From contig JAISRT010000036.1 of assembly GCA_031273495.1 (NCBI GenBank), forward strand, positions 1 to 34,540: a DNA stretch of 34,540 nt, given 5' to 3'. The stretch is from Candidatus Ancillula kalotermitis (lineage in GTDB: Bacteria > Actinomycetota > Actinomycetes > Actinomycetales > Bifidobacteriaceae). Shown in pieces: positions 1,336-34,540 of this stretch. A program made the translations under genes and the position numbers. The notes under the pieces were generated by a model. It did no database searches. It had not been told where the DNA came from and saw nothing but the letters and a program-made list of their open reading frames with translations. Each line of letters starts with the position of its first letter. Position 1 is the first letter of the stretch.

Positions 1336-1341
1336 GTGAGT

Positions 1342-3024
1342 ATGGCTGAATTTATTTACACAATGCACGAAGCCCGCAAAACTGTTGGCACTAAGGTAAT
1401 ACTCGATAACGTTTCCCTGAACTTCCTGCCAGGCGCGAAAATTGGTGTGGTGGGACCCAACGGGGCTGGTAAGTCGACACTTTTGAAGGTGATGGCTGGG
1501 ATTGAGACACTGAGCAATGGTGAGGCGCGGCTTAGTCCAGGGTTCACAGTAGGTATTCTTTTGCAGGAACCACCGCTTGATGAGACGAAAAATGTACTAG
1601 AAAATGTGCAGTCCGCGAAGAAAGAGTTGTTCGACAAAATCGCGCGGTTTAATGAAGTGTCCGCTGAAATGGCTGACCCAGATGCGGATTTTGATGCGCT
1701 AATGGAGGAGATGGGGAAGCTGCAGACCGATATTGATGCGGCAGATGCCTGGGACTTGGACTCTCAATTGGAGCAGGCTATGCAGGCGTTAGGATGTCCG
1801 CCGCCAGATGCGGATGTTAAAAAACTTTCCGGAGGCGAGAGGCGCAGGGTTGCGTTGTGTAAACTTCTGCTTGAGGAACCGGATTTACTGCTGCTTGACG
1901 AGCCTACTAACCACCTTGACGCGGAGTCGGTCGAGTGGCTTGAGCAACATCTTAAACAGTATAAAGGCGCGGTTTTGGCAGTGACACATGACCGCTATTT
2001 CCTCGACCACGTAGCGCAGTGGATTTGTGAAGTTGACCGTGGTAATTTGTATCCATATGAGGGCAACTACACCACATACCTAGAGACTAAGCGCGAGAGG
2101 CTTGAGGTGCAGGGCAAGAAAGACGTTAAGCTCAGCAAGCGCTTGAAAGACGAACTGGAGTGGGTGCGCACTAACCCTAAGGGACGCCAGGCGAAGTCCA
2201 AGGCGAGACTTGCCGCGTATGAGGAGATGGCGCGCGAGGCGGAGAAGACTAAGAAGCTCGACTTTGAAGAGATACAGATACCACCAGGACCACGACTAGG
2301 CGATGTCGTCATAGAAGCGGACAAGCTCAAGAAAGGGTTCGGTGACCGAGTGCTAATTGACGGACTATCGTTCACTTTGCCGCCTAATGGGATTGTCGGC
2401 GTAATCGGGCCGAACGGTGTGGGCAAGACGACACTTTTCAAAACGATTGTCGGACTTGAAGAGCTAGACGGTGGAAATCTAAAAGTCGGTGAGACTGTGA
2501 AAATCAGCTATGTTGACCAGACACGCCAGGGCTTAGACCCGAACAAAAACCTCTGGGAGTGCATTTCGGACGGGCAAGATGTGCTAATTGTGAATGGTGT
2601 TGAGATTCCGAGTCGAGCGTATGTTGCGAGCTTTGGGTTCAAAGGGCCAGACCAGCAGAAAATGAGCGGTATACTGTCAGGAGGTGAGCGCAATCGCTTG
2701 AATTTGGCATTAACGCTCAAGGAGGGCGGGAATCTATTACTGCTTGACGAGCCTACAAATGACCTTGATGTAGAAACACTGGGTAGTCTGGAAAACGCGC
2801 TGTTGAAGTTCCCTGGGTGCGCGGTAGTTGTCAGTCATGACAGATGGTTTCTCGACCGCGTGGCAACACATATTCTGGCGTATGAAGGCACCCAAGAGTC
2901 TCCTGCCAGCTGGTATTGGTTCGAAGGTAACTTTCAAGACTACGAGGCAAATAAGGTTGAGCGGCTCGGTGAGTCCGCGGCCAGAACTGGCAAGTCGGTG
3001 TACAAGAAATTGACCAGAGGGTAG
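1342..3024 (+). CDS. ettA: Energy-dependent translational throttle protein EttA (ABC-F)
   Basis: This is a 560-residue cytoplasmic ABC-F ATPase with two ATP-binding cassettes. Family members bind the ribosomal E site and gate elongation according to energy state. Cassette 1 has Walker A GPNGAGKST (about residues 38-46), signature LSGGERRR and Walker B LLLLDEPTNHLD. Cassette 2 has GPNGVGKTT, LSGGERNR and LLLLDEPTNDLD. The linker with KGRQAKSKARL and the order of segments match EttA rather than Uup or the resistance-type ABC-F proteins. I chose ATG 1342, preceded by AGGTGAG; GTG 1336, directly after the yebC stop, is the alternative. A second, different ABC-F gene is at 25190. Confidence 0.93.
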   Translation: MAEFIYTMHEARKTVGTKVILDNVSLNFLPGAKIGVVGPNGAGKSTLLKVMAGIETLSNGEARLSPGFTVGILLQEPPLDETKNVLENVQSAKKELFDKIARFNEVSAEMADPDADFDALMEEMGKLQTDIDAADAWDLDSQLEQAMQALGCPPPDADVKKLSGGERRRVALCKLLLEEPDLLLLDEPTNHLDAESVEWLEQHLKQYKGAVLAVTHDRYFLDHVAQWICEVDRGNLYPYEGNYTTYLETKRERLEVQGKKDVKLSKRLKDELEWVRTNPKGRQAKSKARLAAYEEMAREAEKTKKLDFEEIQIPPGPRLGDVVIEADKLKKGFGDRVLIDGLSFTLPPNGIVGVIGPNGVGKTTLFKTIVGLEELDGGNLKVGETVKISYVDQTRQGLDPNKNLWECISDGQDVLIVNGVEIPSRAYVASFGFKGPDQQKMSGILSGGERNRLNLALTLKEGGNLLLLDEPTNDLDVETLGSLENALLKFPGCAVVVSHDRWFLDRVATHILAYEGTQESPASWYWFEGNFQDYEANKVERLGESAARTGKSVYKKLTRG

Positions 3025-3025
3025 A

Positions 3026-4258
3026 GTGAAGATGAAGAGACTAATTGACCGTATCGCTAACATCAGGTTGATACAGAGTGTTGGTGACGCGTCATACTCG
3101 TTATATCTGATACATTTCGTAGTTATAACACTACTCTTGAGATGCTATATTGTCAACATGGATGGGCACCCATGGTTTACCGCACGTGAAAAAGTTTATA
3201 TATTGCTGGGATGTCTCATCGTTTCTTTCTTGATGCTAAAACTCGTCGAGCCAGTTTTGAAGCGCCTCCGAGTTCGAAAAGTATATATTATCTCTAGTAT
3301 AGCAGTTGTAATTTTGGTCGGTGCAAATTGTATTGTTGAAGCACATTCCTCCTCCATCGTGGGGGGGGGTATCCAGGAAATTAATTCAAAAGCCTATGCC
3401 GCCGTTGATGCAGAGGTTAAACTACGCGAATCCACAGGGTCTACAGTGACTCAGAACACTGCTCAAACCATCGAATCTGCGCTTTCAGATGAAGAAAAAA
3501 ATTCATTATGCTACGGTGCAGTAGCTGTTTTGCATTTAGATTTTTGTGACACCCCTTACGGACAAGTTAATGAGCAAGCGTTGTCTTTATCTTCAATGGA
3601 CTGGTACCCTCAGGAGTCTGCGTGTATTGATGTTCTTGAAGTTGGGCACTGCCCATTCGTGGGCGACCAAAATTCTAATGTTGTTTATGCAGTTTATGGT
3701 GACTCTCGCGCTCGGTCGCTTTATGACGCATTTGACATTGCGGGAAAAATGCTACACGTAAAATTCGAATATTTTGTTAATGAAGCTTGCTCAATCGAGC
3801 CTGCAAAAGTTAATCCTGATAAATGGTTTTCTAGACAAACATGTCAAGATAACTGGAGTACTATGATGTCAAACTTACAGAAATACAAAAAAGTGATATT
3901 AATTAATCGTTTTGAGATGTACGATTCTATGTTTGATAATTACAGTCGTAGCATCAAAGAATTGCTCGAACAACACAGAAACTTTTATTTACTAGAGACT
4001 AATCCATCATTTTCTGTTTCCGCTGCTCATCAGATATCGATACCTAGAAATAGTGTAGACAGTCTTGGAAATCATTTTTACCCCGATTTAATGCAGAACG
4101 GCACGGAGATTCCTATGTCAAAAGCTTTATGCGACGATGAAAATTGCTATGCAGCAGTTGCGGATGTAGTAACTCTTTTTGATAAATTGCATTTTTCTAG
4201 GACATTCTCTATTACTCTTGGACCTCTGCTTGCAGATGCCCTAGAAGGTATCGAATAG
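3026..4258 (+). CDS. C-terminal half of an acyltransferase-3/SGNH surface protein
   Basis: The 410-residue product begins with what is normally the last part of an OafA-type acyltransferase membrane domain. GDASYSLYLIHFVVI (about 20-34) corresponds to the family's late 'GDxSYSLYLxHWP' helix, followed by two more hydrophobic segments (58-72, 86-102). A soluble SGNH-like domain follows, with block I GDSR at about 225 and block V DKLHFS near 390. Such proteins O-acylate surface polysaccharides. The first roughly 300 residues of the membrane domain are missing. A matching N-terminal half with no C-terminus lies at 16442-17539. The start is GTG 3026 (AGAGGG upstream) or ATG 3032, two bases after ettA. 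The gene is visibly more AT-rich than its neighbours and contains a G9 run. Confidence 0.75.
   Translation: MKMKRLIDRIANIRLIQSVGDASYSLYLIHFVVITLLLRCYIVNMDGHPWFTAREKVYILLGCLIVSFLMLKLVEPVLKRLRVRKVYIISSIAVVILVGANCIVEAHSSSIVGGGIQEINSKAYAAVDAEVKLRESTGSTVTQNTAQTIESALSDEEKNSLCYGAVAVLHLDFCDTPYGQVNEQALSLSSMDWYPQESACIDVLEVGHCPFVGDQNSNVVYAVYGDSRARSLYDAFDIAGKMLHVKFEYFVNEACSIEPAKVNPDKWFSRQTCQDNWSTMMSNLQKYKKVILINRFEMYDSMFDNYSRSIKELLEQHRNFYLLETNPSFSVSAAHQISIPRNSVDSLGNHFYPDLMQNGTEIPMSKALCDDENCYAAVADVVTLFDKLHFSRTFSITLGPLLADALEGIE
3361..3369 (+). repeat. G9 homopolymer run inside the SGNH-domain gene
   Basis: Nine consecutive G residues encode part of a Val-Gly-Gly-Gly stretch just after the last membrane segment of the 3026 gene. 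Gain or loss of one base would shift the frame and remove the SGNH domain. This is the longest single-base run I noticed in the window. Confidence 0.85.
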
Positions 4259-4336: not shown

Positions 4337-5080
4337 ATGCAGAGTTTTGATACCATCGAAAGGACGATAATACCCAGAATTGCGGGTGTTAGAGTCGATG
4401 AAGTTTATTCTGATGACGAAGCTGATCGAATAGACCTCAAACTCGAGGTTGGTGTTTCTGAGCAAAAAATTCAACTTGGCAAGCCGTTAAAACGCGCAAA
4501 AGTGAAGGCGATATTGTTAGCAGACTGCACAATAGACTGGCGGAACTACTTCGATAAGATTGGGGAATCGTCTGCCACAGTTGTAGATTTGTTTTTTGAC
4601 TCTGGGTTAAATGACATTTTGGAGCTCGGCCGACGAAACGGTGTGCGACTTGATGACCTCTTCAGTTATAGTTTTGAATCAAAAGTACTTCGCGATAACC
4701 TTCCAATGTTCAAGAATTTGAAAATACTGACGAGCAACCCTAAAGCACCACAGAAGTGCAGAATCGAAAAAGTTGTCGAAATACTTGAAGTGATTTGTAG
4801 TATTGAATCGGAATTATTGCTCCTAATGCCCACAAACTTGTTGAGTTGTAGTGAAATATGTGCTATTGTTGATGAGCTCGAAATCATAACTAAACTGACT
4901 CCAAAAGGTGTCGCGGACTGCTCTTCTATCATTAAAGTGTCCGCGGTCGCGCTAGAAAGTGTCAAAATAGTACGTGCCAAGAACTTCGAGAGCGGTCTCT
5001 TCTCGAGAAGCAGTAGATGGCGTTCAAGGGGTGTCACGAGAAGTGCTGCAAAACGCATTTTGGGGGTGCAGGTCATTTGA
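4337..5080 (+). CDS. TadZ/CpaE/Ssd-like protein without a visible P-loop
   Basis: The 247-residue product is the first gene of a Tad-like set. Its position directly before tadA is that of the MinD-family localisation factor (TadZ/CpaE, Ssd in actinobacteria). Weak similarity is visible: KVKAILLADCT (about 55-65) where a P-loop strand is expected, TVVDLFFDSGLNDILELG, resembling the 'vDlDxxxGglDvllGl' segment, then a 'DDLFSYSFESKVLRDNLP' segment resembling Ssd proteins. There is no GKGGxGKT motif, so ATP binding is doubtful. The last five bases overlap the proposed tadA start (TTGA). It is transcribed from a leaderless promoter. The assignment rests mainly on context. Confidence 0.5.
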   Translation: MQSFDTIERTIIPRIAGVRVDEVYSDDEADRIDLKLEVGVSEQKIQLGKPLKRAKVKAILLADCTIDWRNYFDKIGESSATVVDLFFDSGLNDILELGRRNGVRLDDLFSYSFESKVLRDNLPMFKNLKILTSNPKAPQKCRIEKVVEILEVICSIESELLLLMPTNLLSCSEICAIVDELEIITKLTPKGVADCSSIIKVSAVALESVKIVRAKNFESGLFSRSSRWRSRGVTRSAAKRILGVQVI

Positions 5081-6012
5081 TTGCCACTTCACTTGTCGAC
5101 CGCCTTCTGGAAATGGAGCGCGTCACGGATATACTAATCAACGGCCCAGGGAAAGTGTTTGTGGACTGCGGAAATGGTATGCAAGAAGTTAATATTACGT
5201 CACATGATCTTAGTTCACCGCAGGATGTGCGCGCACTGGCACTTAAACTTTCACAGCAGGCTAACGCGCGCCTCGATGATGCTTGTCCGATAGTTGATGC
5301 TCAACTGAGAAATAATGTTCGCCTGCACGCGGTCCTGAGCCCAATATGTCCTCCCGAGTGCGGGGCACTGATTAGCCTACGCGTGACCCCTACTCAATTT
5401 TACACGCTAGACAAGCTCTCAGAAATGGGGATGTTTGACTCGCAGGTTAAGAGGCGGTTGAAAAAAGTCGTTGCGGCGCAGAAGAACATCATAATTTCGG
5501 GAAGCACGGGATCTGGGAAGACGACATTGATGACCGCGCTTCTGCAAGAAGTCCCCAAATCTGAGAGGGTGATTGCCATCGAAGAAGCACGTGAGTTGCC
5601 GAGTGGAATTTCTTCTGGACTAGTGTTGCTGTCCGCGAAACAGGCGAATTCTGAGGGGTCAGGTGAGGTCAAGTTGGCAAAATTGTTGAAGGCTACGTTG
5701 AGGATGCGCCCGGACCGCATAGTTTTGGGGGAGTGTCGCGGCGACGAGGTGCGAGAGTTCTTGCTTTGCCTAGGTGCTGGATATTCTGGGTCATTCACGA
5801 CGATTCATGCTAGCAGCGCAAGGGCAGTTCGAGATAGGGTTCATGCACTAGCGTTCATGGCAGGTGTTTATTCACAAGTTGTCCAGGCTCAGTTTGACAA
5901 TTTCGTCGATGTCGTTATCCATGTGAAGAAAACCCCGAGAGGTCGTGTTGTAGAAGAGGTTCTTGAACTTGATAAACTTCGCCCAGTGCACTCAAAGCTT
6001 GAGGAGTTGTAA
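5077..6012 (+). CDS. tadA: TadA/CpaF-type secretion ATPase
   Basis: This is a hexameric secretion or pilus-assembly ATPase of the TadA group (311 residues from TTG 5077). Visible are the N-terminal VTDILINGPGKVFVD strand typical of CpaF/TadA, Walker A GSTGSGKTT (about 142-150), Walker B-type RIVLGECRGDE (214-224) and a His-box TIHASSA (242-248). It is shorter than classical CpaF and fits the compact actinobacterial 'conjugal transfer-associated' type. I prefer TTG 5077, overlapping the upstream stop as TTGA with GGGGG upstream. An in-frame ATG at 5017 would add 20 residues with no family resemblance. It should power assembly or export together with the membrane protein at 6012. Confidence 0.88.
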   Translation: MIATSLVDRLLEMERVTDILINGPGKVFVDCGNGMQEVNITSHDLSSPQDVRALALKLSQQANARLDDACPIVDAQLRNNVRLHAVLSPICPPECGALISLRVTPTQFYTLDKLSEMGMFDSQVKRRLKKVVAAQKNIIISGSTGSGKTTLMTALLQEVPKSERVIAIEEARELPSGISSGLVLLSAKQANSEGSGEVKLAKLLKATLRMRPDRIVLGECRGDEVREFLLCLGAGYSGSFTTIHASSARAVRDRVHALAFMAGVYSQVVQAQFDNFVDVVIHVKKTPRGRVVEEVLELDKLRPVHSKLEEL

Positions 6013-15288: not shown

Positions 15289-16440
15289 GTGAAGCGAATT
15301 TTACTACTGGTCACCTCGCTCAACCGCGGTGGCATCGAGACTGCATTGTTGAATTACCTAAAAGAGTTGCAGAGAGAAAATCAACTAGACGTCAATTACC
15401 ATTTTGACTTGCTCATCAACCGGGAGGAGAGGGGGACACTCGAGCAGGATTTTCTCGACCTGGGATGTAACATTTTCCGCATGGCACCAATGTATCCTTG
15501 GACATTTCACCGCTACAAGAAGGAGTTCACACAGTTTCTACTGCAGAATAGTCAATACGATGTCATCCACTCACACCTAGAGGAGCGCAGTTTCTTCCCC
15601 ATGAAGATAGCCTTGAAGATGCAATATGCCGCAAAGTTGGTTGTCCAGGTACACAGTGACCATGTTATGCCAGTCTTGGACCCGAAGTCGCTGTTCAGAC
15701 GGTTTTTTCGTTCCCGACTGCGTAAACTCAATGGTATAGCAAAGGTGGCAGTGTCAAAACAGTGCGCCAAATGGCTGTGGGGTGACGCGTCCGGTGTTAA
15801 AATCATACCGAACCCCATTGACCTTGACGGCTTGAAGTTTAATGAAGTGCTACGGCTAAAAAAGCGCACGGAGCTCAATGTTGCTCCAGAAACTTTACTA
15901 CTGGGGAGCGTGGGGCGCCTAACATATCCGAAAAACCACGAAATGATGCTCTTGACCGCGGCACAGCTTCCGCATGATCTTGACTTCAAACTGCTATTGG
16001 TGGGTCAAGGTGAACTTAAAGCGGAGATTGCTAGGAAGGCTGGGAGCCTAGGACTTGACGACAGGCTGATTATGGTAGGTGAAGTTGAGGATCCTGGTGG
16101 ATATTTCGCTACTATGGACATCTTCTTATTCCCGAGTCGCTTTGAGGGGCTAGGTATTGTTGCAATTGAGGCTCAGGCATCAGGGTTGTCTGTCCTGGCG
16201 TCAGATCGGGTTCCTGAAGACGCGAAGCTGACTGCGAACTTCGAAGTGCTTGAGATTGGGGGCAATATACCAAAGGTCGAATACGCTAGACGTTGGGCAA
16301 AGCGCATTCTGGAAATTGTGCAGTATTCAGACTCGGCTTTCACTTTCCCGAAACGGCATATTGACGCGTATAATACTGTGGAGAAATCGAGCTACAATGT
16401 GCAAACCGCAACGCAAGAACTAATTATGCTATACTACTGA
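15289..16440 (+). CDS. GT4-family glycosyltransferase, surface polysaccharide type
   Basis: The 383-residue GT-B enzyme begins KRILLLVTSLNRGGIETALLNYL, the classic GT4 glycine-rich N-terminus. YDVIHSHLEERSFF, AVSKQCAKWLWG, IIPNPIDLDGLKFN, GRLTYPKNHEMML and the EX7E motif EGLGIVAIE follow. It looks like an EpsF- or capsule-type enzyme; the sugar is unknown. GTG 15289 immediately follows the scpB stop with no clear Shine-Dalgarno sequence, so it probably depends on scpB translation. The last codons (LIMLYY) contain the promoter of the next gene. Confidence 0.87.
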   Translation: MKRILLLVTSLNRGGIETALLNYLKELQRENQLDVNYHFDLLINREERGTLEQDFLDLGCNIFRMAPMYPWTFHRYKKEFTQFLLQNSQYDVIHSHLEERSFFPMKIALKMQYAAKLVVQVHSDHVMPVLDPKSLFRRFFRSRLRKLNGIAKVAVSKQCAKWLWGDASGVKIIPNPIDLDGLKFNEVLRLKKRTELNVAPETLLLGSVGRLTYPKNHEMMLLTAAQLPHDLDFKLLLVGQGELKAEIARKAGSLGLDDRLIMVGEVEDPGGYFATMDIFLFPSRFEGLGIVAIEAQASGLSVLASDRVPEDAKLTANFEVLEIGGNIPKVEYARRWAKRILEIVQYSDSAFTFPKRHIDAYNTVEKSSYNVQTATQELIMLYY

Positions 16441-16441: not shown

Positions 16442-17539
16442 ATGAACGTAGAAATTGAGCAGCCGAAGAAAAAAAACATCTTCTACAGGGTGTTATTTAG
16501 AACTCCAAGACCTGGTTTTCGTGCCGATATTCAGGCAATGCGTGCACTAGCAGTTATCGCAGTCGTGCTATATCATCTCTGGCCAGACAAACTCTTAACA
16601 GGTGGCTTCACTGGTGTCGACATTTTCTTCGTCATCTCTGGGTATCTGATGACTCTCCATATTGTCAAGGGGCTTGAGGCTGGTGGCTTCGAGAAGGGGA
16701 AAAGGTTAAGGTTCTTCGCTAATTTCTACGCCAGAAGGATTCGTCGACTGCTCCCCGCTGCAATATTCACATTACTCCTTGTGCTCGCGATTTTAGTGGT
16801 TCTATTGCCGAAAGACTATTATACACAGTCCCTAACAACCGCGCAGATTATTGCTTCGGCGCTATTTGTGCAGAACTGGAAGCTCGCTGCTGACAAGGTT
16901 GACTATTTGGCGCAGAACAATGAGGCGACTGCCGTCCAGCATTTCTGGAGTCTCTCGGTAGAAGAGCAGTTTTATTTCATTTGGCCACTGCTCCTAATGC
17001 TCTTCATGTTGATCGGGCTGGCACTGTCCGCAAAGATTGGCAATAAACTCGCAGAAAAGGCTGACCTCAAGGGGTATGACGCCAAGCAGATGAAGACCCG
17101 TAATGTACTCAGGATTTTTGTCTTCGGGTTCACGCTACTGTTTTTCATTTTTGGCGTGTATTTCACGAACGCTAATGCCGCAGCCGCGTATTTTATTACA
17201 CCTGCGCGCCTCTGGGAGCTATCTATCGGCGGGTGCATCGCGCTGTCGACACCGTTAATCGTCCTCCTGACGCGCAAGACTGGTGAGTTAAGCAAGTTCG
17301 GGCGAGTTGTATATGAAGTGCTACCGTTCATAGGTGTTGGAATCTGCCTCTATGGTATTATGAAGTTCAACTCTGGTATTGAAGCTGGTTTCCCAGGGTT
17401 CTACGCGCTAGTTCCTACCATCGGTGCTGCTATAATTATCTGGTCTGGAATGCAAGAAAATGAACAGCGTTTCACACTTCAAGATGTGGTTGACTACACT
17501 GAAGTGGATGGTAAAAAGACCTCTAGTTCAGTCGCTTAA
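16442..17539 (+). CDS. N-terminal half of an acyltransferase-3 membrane protein
   Basis: The 365-residue polytopic membrane protein starts with the OafA/YrhL signature FRADIQAMRALAVIAVVLYH (catalytic-type His at about 45), then GGFTGVDIFFVISGYLM, FYARRIRRLLPA and HFWSLSVEEQFYFIWPLLL. Helices continue to about residue 345 (GFYALVPTIGAAIIIW), after which the frame runs into a hydrophilic tail and stops. The late membrane helix with 'SYSLYLxH' and any SGNH domain are absent. A gene with exactly those parts lies at 3026-4258. Whether this half works alone, with the other half in trans, or is a remnant is unknown. The start is ATG 16442 from promoter spacing. Confidence 0.85.
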   Translation: MNVEIEQPKKKNIFYRVLFRTPRPGFRADIQAMRALAVIAVVLYHLWPDKLLTGGFTGVDIFFVISGYLMTLHIVKGLEAGGFEKGKRLRFFANFYARRIRRLLPAAIFTLLLVLAILVVLLPKDYYTQSLTTAQIIASALFVQNWKLAADKVDYLAQNNEATAVQHFWSLSVEEQFYFIWPLLLMLFMLIGLALSAKIGNKLAEKADLKGYDAKQMKTRNVLRIFVFGFTLLFFIFGVYFTNANAAAAYFITPARLWELSIGGCIALSTPLIVLLTRKTGELSKFGRVVYEVLPFIGVGICLYGIMKFNSGIEAGFPGFYALVPTIGAAIIIWSGMQENEQRFTLQDVVDYTEVDGKKTSSSVA

Positions 17540-17543
17540 AACA

Positions 17544-18554
17544 GTGGAAATCGTCTTAGTTTATGGAATCCGCACTCGGTGGGGTACTACAATGTTTGGC
17601 GACGAGTCACTTTTTAATGAGCACTGGATGATTCAGACGTTTTTCAAGTCGGAGGGCGGGCGTTTTCGTAAATGCCTTTTTTCGCGTGCAGTAAATGAAC
17701 GTATTGAGCTTCGTAATAGTTTCCTCGCGAATCTTGAACTTAAAACACGTTCAATACTACCAGATATGCTGAAGTCCACCGACAAACATTATGTTTTTCC
17801 GAGTGGTGAGATTCTCTGGAATGGGAGCATGTATCGCTCAAAATACACGATTAAAACCGTCGAGAAGTTGATTGATCAGGGGCGAGCAACACTATATCTC
17901 ACTGATCCTGTATCATTCTTCGTCAATAATAACACTGAACTTGTGCCGTGGCTCTCAAAGTTCAAGAATATACTGACATACTCTAAATCTGATGCCCAGC
18001 AGTATGGGTTCAAATTGCTCCCGTTTGGCTACTTCGAGGACAAGGATTACGGTTTTAGGCAGCAGATCAGTGAAAGCCCTACAAAAGACTTTGGGTTGCT
18101 CCAGTTCGTAGGTGACGACGCTTTTCGGCGTGCCATGACTGCGAAGTTGATTTCGACCGCTAGTGAGACAAACCTGGACTTTAACTTCAGCTCTGGTGGT
18201 GATGCACAGTTTAAGCACCTGGAGAACTACGTGTCGCGCGGTTATGCCAATGACTTTCGAGCACGGTGTGGTGATGTAAACTGTATGGTGATGTTCTCTG
18301 CGCATCATGCCAATTATTTGAGTGGTTCCTGTCTGGAAAGTTTGACATTCGGGCGCAAATTGTTGACAACATCTAAACTGATTCAAGACCTGCCATGTTA
18401 CGATGATAGGTTTATCAAGGTGATTGAGTCGCCTGATGATATTACTGAAGATGTGCTAGACTGGATGAAAGCGCGAGAGGATGTGCAGTTTGACAATTTG
18501 GAGTGTATAAGCGTGCCACACTTCATCAAGGAGTTAACTAAATTGTGCCAGTGA
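17544..18554 (+). CDS. Putative glycosyltransferase-like surface polysaccharide protein
   Basis: The 336-residue protein belongs, by pattern, to a poorly characterised family near capsule and LPS genes: LTYSKSDAQQYGFKLLPFGYFE resembles the family's 'fsfDkeDakkYglkylp', and SCLESLTFGRKLLTTSKLIQDLP resembles 'alEsLffgkKlITtNksI'. A GT-B-type fold is an inference. GTG 17544, five bases after the acyltransferase stop, gives a beta-strand start (VEIVLVYGIRTRWG); ATG 17592 is an alternative. The frame is also open upstream to 17460, overlapping the acyltransferase, but that part looks unrelated. It converges with clpX and overlaps its end by 17 bases. Confidence 0.6.
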   Translation: MEIVLVYGIRTRWGTTMFGDESLFNEHWMIQTFFKSEGGRFRKCLFSRAVNERIELRNSFLANLELKTRSILPDMLKSTDKHYVFPSGEILWNGSMYRSKYTIKTVEKLIDQGRATLYLTDPVSFFVNNNTELVPWLSKFKNILTYSKSDAQQYGFKLLPFGYFEDKDYGFRQQISESPTKDFGLLQFVGDDAFRRAMTAKLISTASETNLDFNFSSGGDAQFKHLENYVSRGYANDFRARCGDVNCMVMFSAHHANYLSGSCLESLTFGRKLLTTSKLIQDLPCYDDRFIKVIESPDDITEDVLDWMKAREDVQFDNLECISVPHFIKELTKLCQ

Positions 18555-34138: not shown

Positions 34139-34540
34139 CGTCGCGCGGGCACCGCCTGCTTTGCAGAAGGTGCAAGTCAAGCATAGTGCAGACTTAGCGC
34201 AGAGCGTGTTTGAGCCGACGCGTAAGCGAGGCGAGGCGAGTTCAGGAGCACGGAGTGCGACCAGAATCGGGAGTTCCACCCGACGCATTCATCGCAGCGC
34301 TGAAGACGAACTGAAAAGTAGAATAGCGCGCTGAAGACGAACTAGGAACTTCGACCGAGCAGGGTGGCTTCGCCGCCCTGCGAATGAAGTGAAATAAGGT
34401 CAAACTCGCTTGCGAGTTTGGCAAATAAGCGGAAGGAGAGCTCGGCGTCCACCCGCGCTAGCGCGCGGGACCCTGAGACGCACCCGCCCGCCCGCGAGCG
34501 CAGCGGTTCTTCCTCTCGAAGTTAAATTTGTTATGAATAG
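34091..34540. other. Non-coding, repeat- and hairpin-rich region
   Basis: No convincing gene. It holds the second 91-bp repeat copy and a series of hairpins: GCACC-CTGC/GCAG-GGTGC (34149-34173), CAGGGTGGC/GCCGCCCTG (34360-34380), CAAACTCGC/GCGAGTTTG (34401-34420) and CCCGCGC/GCGCGGG (34452-34469). The short frames open here are antisense to repeat copies. Confidence 0.55.
34272..34362. repeat. 91-bp direct repeat, copy 2
   Basis: Exact copy of 34048-34138, offset 224 bases, containing a fragment of the lepA 3' end and its stop out of context. The left arm of the 12-bp inverted repeat is mostly lost here, so copy 1 is probably the original. Confidence 0.9.

Follow-up and report, generated by a model that had tools for sequence, protein, structure and literature searches.

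Two genes in the window analysed here, a stretch of 34,540 nucleotides from Candidatus Ancillula kalotermitis, probably encode complementary parts of an AT3-SGNH acyltransferase for envelope glycans that is split between genes. Read from the sequences, the gene at 16442-17539 (N-half) would supply a shared membrane core, and the gene at 3026-4258 (C-half 1) would be one of several C-terminal halves that join this core in trans, are partly phase-variable and set the acceptor specificity. A. kalotermitis belongs to a lineage of Bifidobacteriaceae that live as symbionts of termite gut flagellates (PMC11707648).

C-half 1 (plus strand) is an intact open reading frame of 410 amino acids with a start codon at 3026 (GTG) or 3032 (ATG). 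It comprises TM9 to TM11 and the SGNH domain of an AT3-SGNH acyltransferase and is devoid of TM1-8. The initial annotation had assigned only late membrane helices and an SGNH domain to this gene, and this was borne out by a PF19040 match of the SGNH domain (E 2.8e-18), by a PF01757 match restricted to the end of the model (positions 265-301 of 326) and by three TM segments in the hydropathy analysis. TM9 and TM10 are encoded at 3065-3265, with the SxxxY motif of TM9 (SYSLY) at 3092-3106 and the TM10 glutamate (residue 75) at 3248-3250. They are followed by TM11 (3275-3349), an extra helix that places the SGNH domain outside the membrane. The SGNH domain itself, delimited by PF19040 and invariant columns, extends from 3644 to 4234 and includes the GDS of block I with the catalytic Ser227 (3698-3706) and block V with D386 and H389 (4181-4192). 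The AlphaFold2 model of C-half 1 is of moderate quality (pLDDT 72, pTM 0.68) and shows three TM helices and an SGNH-like fold, for which Foldseek returned a match to the GDSL esterase 8gr2. The only sequence match of the C-part profile in the PDB was 6SE1, the SGNH domain of a lipopolysaccharide-modification acyltransferase (OafB). Directly upstream, on the same strand, lies the gene of an EttA-like ABC-F ATPase (1336-3024). The window also contains a type II/IV secretion ATPase (PF00437) at 5017-6012; the genome paper of the lineage reports neither tight-adherence pili nor type IV secretion (PMC11707648).

The N-half (plus strand) is likewise an intact open reading frame, with 365 amino acids, TM1 to TM8 of the same AT3-SGNH family, eight TM segments in the hydropathy analysis and no SGNH domain. 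Its PF01757 match covers positions 2-259 only. The AT3 signature residues R-X10-H (R34/H45), FFVISG, RxxR (R99/R102) and EEQFY are retained, as is every column that is invariant among its homologues. The 3' end encodes the TM8/TM9 loop and a tail of about 24 amino acids without counterpart in fused homologues. The AlphaFold2 model (pLDDT 83, pTM 0.83) consists of a confidently predicted membrane bundle and a disordered tail, and Foldseek found no significant match for it. The N-half is located between two glycosyltransferase genes on the same strand: a family 4 gene at 15289-16440, which ends 1 base upstream, and a WaaS/CpsH-like gene at 17460-18554, which overlaps its 3' end (NF053598, E 3.7e-9, below the curated cut-off). 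The identity of the latter excludes that this reading frame is a frameshifted remainder of the N-half.

The two genes are 12 kb apart and, in agreement with the initial annotation, encode 775 residues in total. The annotation had also proposed that the N-half carries only the earlier helices and stops where C-half 1 begins, and both the Pfam tiling and the alignment confirmed this. On the Pfam AT3 model the N-half occupies positions 2-259 and C-half 1 starts at 265, without overlap; in the genome-wide scan the matches of the C-halves ran from 257-265 to 318-325 of 326. The NCBIfam model of SucT (NF058601, 723 positions) is matched from 31 to 305 by the N-half and from 314 to 546 by C-half 1. 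With 98 and 27 bits, respectively, the equivalog cut-off of 1275 bits was not reached; judged by sequence, both proteins are related to SucT, but are not SucT. When aligned to full-length fused homologues the N-half ends with '...YALVPTIGAAIIIWSGMQE', followed by its tail, and C-half 1 opens with 'MKRLIDRIANIRLIQSVGDASYSLYLIH'. The ends are complementary: the halves share no residue and no segment is missing between them. The split point is thus the TM8/TM9 loop, and C-half 1 starts just before TM9. Since this loop is cytoplasmic in the AT3 topology (PMC9833829), both halves should be able to insert correctly into the membrane. The predicted orientation has both ends of the N-half inside, the start of the C-half inside and its SGNH end outside.

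Taken as a sum, N-half and C-half contain TM1-10 of the AT3 domain and the complete set of signature residues (R-X10-H, FFxISG, RxxR, the SxxxY of TM9 and the TM10 Glu), and the SGNH residues S227, D386 and H389 are conserved in all four C-halves of the genome described below. The known members of the AT3-SGNH family are single polypeptides, and here two separate genes are found. Because the domains are distributed over two genes and no fused copy was found in the genome, we classed the system as a split variant and not as an ordinary AT3-SGNH member.

The ancestry of both parts was analysed with trees containing the halves and 37 fused AT3-SGNH proteins. The N-half grouped with the N-terminal part of a fused gene from a sister genus (G011:C43; support 98/94), and the four C-halves grouped with the C-terminal part of the same gene (100/99). 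In a tree of the SGNH domain alone the four C-halves and G011:C43 remained one clade (89/96), which excludes an origin of the C-halves from different AT3 lineages. A phage origin was rejected as well, as only three weak IMG/VR matches were obtained. A fused gene in relatives, which the annotation had recommended to look for, therefore exists, and since both halves have it as their best match, they do not fall into different orthologous groups. The suggestion that they are remnants of two different genes, which the annotation had favoured somewhat because of the AT-richness at 3026-4258, is not supported. The AT-richness as such is real: the GC content is 0.40 in C-half 1 versus 0.47 in the N-half, and GC3 is 0.36 versus 0.53. 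As a mark of a different gene it fails, since GC3 is lowest in the SGNH-encoding part of C-half 1 (0.31-0.32) and amounts to 0.49 in the TM9-10 part; low values concentrated in this one part are no sign of a different gene family. A similar pattern was observed in all four C-halves (GC3 of 0.49-0.58 in the TM9-10 part versus 0.32-0.47 elsewhere), with the largest contrast in C-half 1. The SGNH parts could have been swapped more recently, or they could evolve under other constraints.

The genome is a MAG of 1,070,202 bases in 62 contigs with a completeness of 81% and a contamination of 0. Genome searches identified one N-half and four intact C-half-only genes, three of them beyond the window on two other contigs: in addition to C-half 1 (C17:3026-4258), C-half 2 (C32:377-1558) is located behind gyrB, and C-halves 3 and 4 form a convergent pair near thrS and groEL on contig C49. 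No intact AT3-SGNH fusion was found in this assembly, which at 81% completeness may lack a fused copy or additional N-halves; apart from the halves, the scan revealed only four AT3 proteins, all AT3-only and of full length. The initial reading as a protein split in two halves is supported with respect to the split, as indicated by the domain tiling, and incorrect with respect to the number. The ratio of a single N-half to four or more C-halves is not accounted for by a simple rearrangement between two positions of the window. The trees and the SucT positions argue for halves of one protein, and the sequences support the proposal that they may work in trans.

A dispersed 34-bp element with an inverted-repeat core (AAGTCAAATAAGGTCAAACTCGCTNGCGAGTTTG) occurs in 15 copies in the genome, one of them at 34387-34420 of the window; further copies directly follow C-half 2 and precede C-half 4. 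All three C-half contigs (C17, C32 and C49) carry this repeat, which argues against a binning chimera. That contigs from different organisms were binned together, or that a fused gene was split by misassembly, is extremely improbable. The MAG is fragmented into 62 contigs and contains a single N-half, as such an artefact might produce; yet one contig of 34.5 kb contains both the N-half and C-half 1, each flanked on either side by intact neighbours, C-halves were found independently on three contigs, and the shared repeat and the contamination value of 0 speak for a single source.

The other three C-halves are identical to C-half 1 in 23-30% of their residues. Invariant in all four are S23, Y27 and H30 in TM9, E75 in TM10 and the Ser, Asp and His of the SGNH domain; the TM9 Ser and Tyr and the TM10 Glu are also invariant in the aligned fused homologues. 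The GDS motif is replaced by GNS in C-half 3 and by GSS in C-half 4, with retention of the catalytic Ser. C-half 2 is devoid of the C-terminal cysteine pair of most homologues, and its PF19040 score is below the cut-off. Identity among the C-halves is 39-47% in TM9-10, 14-24% in TM11 and the linker and 21-29% in the SGNH domain. Compared with fused proteins of equal SGNH divergence, the excess in TM9-10 is modest (mean z 0.97): of 4000 random fused quartets, 195 show at least as much; relative to G011:C43 the C-halves show no excess of TM9-10 identity. The conservation fits, without proving it, a set of four subunits that are kept compatible with one N-half, and could partly be due to shared descent.

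These data also bear on the possibility that the C-halves function independently of the N-half as membrane-anchored SGNH esterases or transferases, which use TM9-11 as a mere anchor and work alone or with an AT3-only protein, while the N-half is a separate and perhaps non-functional protein. We consider this unlikely. A plain anchor would need neither the SxxxY motif, the TM9 His nor the TM10 Glu, yet these residues are kept in four of four C-halves, and TM9-10 is the best-conserved segment. Moreover, AT3-only partners already possess TM9-10, whereas for the intact N-half no other source of these helices is known. On the other hand, the number of TM segments in each C-half is odd and its SGNH domain is intact, so that it could stand alone, separate SGNH proteins are known from the MBOAT-SGNH systems PatA/PatB and AlgI/AlgX, the four full-length AT3-only proteins of the genome would be available, and the Foldseek match of C-half 1 is a GDSL esterase.

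We prefer the reading as a split enzyme with a shared N-half. Among 189 genomes of the same family, matches to the C-half profile were found in only two besides the genome studied here, both in fused-type genes. In the order, 289 of 396 genomes had matches; among the matches listed, which leave off at the weaker end, every frame outside the A. kalotermitis genome had at least 562 amino acids and no C-half-only gene was present, whereas the matches within this genome were in frames of 414-416 amino acids. The genomes G001-G003 of the same genus showed no C-half-only gene. In G001, gyrB is followed by gyrA at the position of C-half 2, no C-half start was detected within 140-360 bases of flank behind ettA in G001 and G002, and one copy in G003 is riddled with stop codons. 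The shared fused relative and the absence of C-half-only genes from G001-G003 make it most likely that the split and the multiplication of the C-part took place within this lineage. The origin would then be one fused gene, as supported by the phylogeny, of a kind that still exists in the sister genus with a G9 tract of its own; after the split the C-part would have multiplied and diverged, and only one N-part is found now.

The stop-riddled G003 copy, the reduced genomes with pseudogenes in the lineage (PMC11707648) and the unusually low GC3 of C-half 1 could also be read as signs of decay, with a fused gene family that was broken up in an eroding symbiont genome and halves that are pseudogenes. 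Such a scenario is improbable: the four C-halves each have an open frame of about 400 codons, retain the catalytic residues and start at the same domain boundary, the N-half retains all columns that are invariant among its homologues, and random truncation of four copies at one loop is not expected.

Several C-halves contain short tracts that are candidates for slipped-strand mispairing. C-half 1 carries a G9 homopolymer from codon 112, just past TM11 (3361-3369, plus strand), as a candidate slippage switch. Its frame is open in the assembled state, and slippage at this site might cut the SGNH domain off. The only other homopolymer of at least 8 nucleotides in the window is an A8 run in codons 10-12 of the N-half (16469-16476, plus strand), a weak slippage candidate. 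Right behind the ATG, C-halves 3 and 4 have (CA)7 in frame (ON) and (CA)9 out of frame (OFF); in the (CA)9 state the product ends after 13 codons. These tract states are single consensus lengths, and 7 versus 9 copies is a comparison between two homologous leaders. In the fused gene G011:C43 a G9 tract is located exactly at the frame break. Thus, the tracts of C-halves 1, 3 and 4 and of G011:C43 are all placed so that a change in length switches the frame, as in contingency loci. Three of the eight tracts of at least G9 or (CA)7 in the genome are located in C-halves, which account for 0.45% of the genome (P about 5e-6); the other five are in or next to genes for a family-2 glycosyltransferase, a membrane protein, two surface proteins and cas6. 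The slippage argument rests on the position of the tracts and on lengths of 13-14 elsewhere and not on the number of G9 tracts, which, by a rough estimate, is not clearly in excess for the size and GC content of the genome.

The leaders of C-halves 3 and 4 are near-identical, and both contain the promoter-like sequence TTGACATACTGTAGGTGCTAYACTAGTG (28 bp). Apart from these two sites, the genome has it only once more, before the gene of a GLUG-repeat surface protein of about 1137 amino acids, which lies on the same contig (C49, L033:11075-14518, minus strand). The presence of own starts in the C-halves, two of them behind this strong promoter-like leader, is difficult to reconcile with silent cassettes, that is, donors that recombine onto the N-half to give fused or rearranged expressed forms. 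The dispersed location of the copies, their diverged SGNH parts and a GC3 that is lower in the SGNH part than in TM9-10 would suit such donors. But a protein identity of 23-30% leaves too little shared sequence for homologous exchange, the N-half has a stop and a tail of its own, and no direct repeat of at least 14 nt was found in its locus, so that we regard cassettes as very improbable.

Tracts were also seen in other genes. The frames of the family-2 glycosyltransferase (C29, L189:3158-4304) and of the membrane protein (C10, L187:3362-5202) are broken exactly at G10 and G13 tracts, and their sequences suggest phase-variable genes in the OFF state. The cas6 gene (PF10040, E 9e-16; C46, L186:166-1041) contains (TG)8 at its 5' end, which seems not to be in frame with the closest ATGs upstream; it is possibly phase-variable. 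The genome paper of the lineage reports cas genes for none of its MAGs (PMC11707648). In the same-genus genome G001, which has 165 overlapping G9 matches representing dozens of distinct tracts, a G12 tract between TTGACA and TATAAT (C2, L191:4466-4495) is found ahead of two genes, one sugar-nucleotide dehydrogenase-like and one for a fused AT3-SGNH protein, and looks like a promoter-spacing switch. The absence of mutS and mutL has been reported for Bifidobacteriaceae in general (PMC11707648).

Phase variation of this kind has precedents. The H. influenzae oafA and Salmonella oafB genes are phase-variable and turn surface O-acetylation on and off (PMC9558356); there the whole enzyme switches, whereas here the back halves would switch and the N-half has no strong tract. 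Poly-G slippage within the Bifidobacteriaceae is documented for the pili of B. breve (PMC9187656), where an intragenic G-tract mediates ON/OFF switching of a surface structure; the target in B. breve is a sortase-dependent pilus and not an acyltransferase, and neither (CA)n tracts nor split genes are involved. With known AT3-SGNH acyltransferases (OafA/OafB, OatA and the mycobacterial SucT) the A. kalotermitis proteins share the domains, their order and the signature residues in TM1-3, TM9, TM10 and the SGNH domain, but the known members consist of one polypeptide, while here the AT3 domain is cut at TM8/TM9 and one N-half faces several C-halves. The MBOAT-SGNH pairs PatA/PatB and AlgI/AlgX also distribute the membrane acyl carrier and the SGNH transferase over separate proteins; their membrane domain belongs to the MBOAT family and is whole, whereas here the cut is within the membrane domain, which the SGNH subunit makes complete. 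ECF transporters, an unrelated family, combine one shared energising module with several S-components and resemble the proposed system in having a shared membrane core and alternative specificity subunits, although here the specificity subunit also holds part of the catalytic membrane core.

In published AT3 models and structures the first helix of TM9-10 closes the acyl-CoA site with its Tyr beside acetyl-CoA, and an important functional role has been assigned to a Glu that terminates TM10 (PMC9833829, PMC12423673). In the mechanism that we propose, the N-half with TM1-8 would provide the acyl-CoA-binding core helices as one shared subunit. Each of at least four alternative C-halves would contribute TM9-10 for closure of the acyl-CoA site, TM11 and a different extracytoplasmic SGNH domain, and the halves would assemble in trans in the membrane. 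The C-half that is produced would set the acceptor sugar or position. C-halves 1 and 2 sit directly behind the housekeeping genes ettA and gyrB, and C-halves 3 and 4 behind identical promoter-like sequences. From the G9 and (CA)n tracts in the C-halves we infer that slipped-strand mispairing probably causes phase variation in which specificities are active. That the enzyme is combinatorial in the full sense, so that the acyl-CoA channel can be completed by any one of four or more half-enzymes, of which several are phase-variable and each brings its own acceptor specificity, is a tentative reading with slightly less than even chances.

In the published mechanism the AT3 channel and the SGNH transferase are one fused machine, and the questions posed for it are how the acyl group passes between AT3 and SGNH and where acceptor specificity resides (PMC9558356). 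What appears new here is an AT3-SGNH enzyme that is split inside the membrane domain, with one front half and several back halves, some of them seemingly switchable. A natural split at TM8/TM9 would separate the shared function, acyl-CoA binding by the N-half, from the variable one, the choice of the acceptor by the C-halves, and the N-half and C-halves represent ready-made pieces for in-trans reconstitution and domain swaps. The tracts point to surface phase variation in a lineage whose members have been described as symbionts living inside the cells of termite gut flagellates and whose genome paper mentions no such variation (PMC11707648). If the proposal is true, A. kalotermitis would produce a slippage-controlled mosaic of surface acylations from one shared core.
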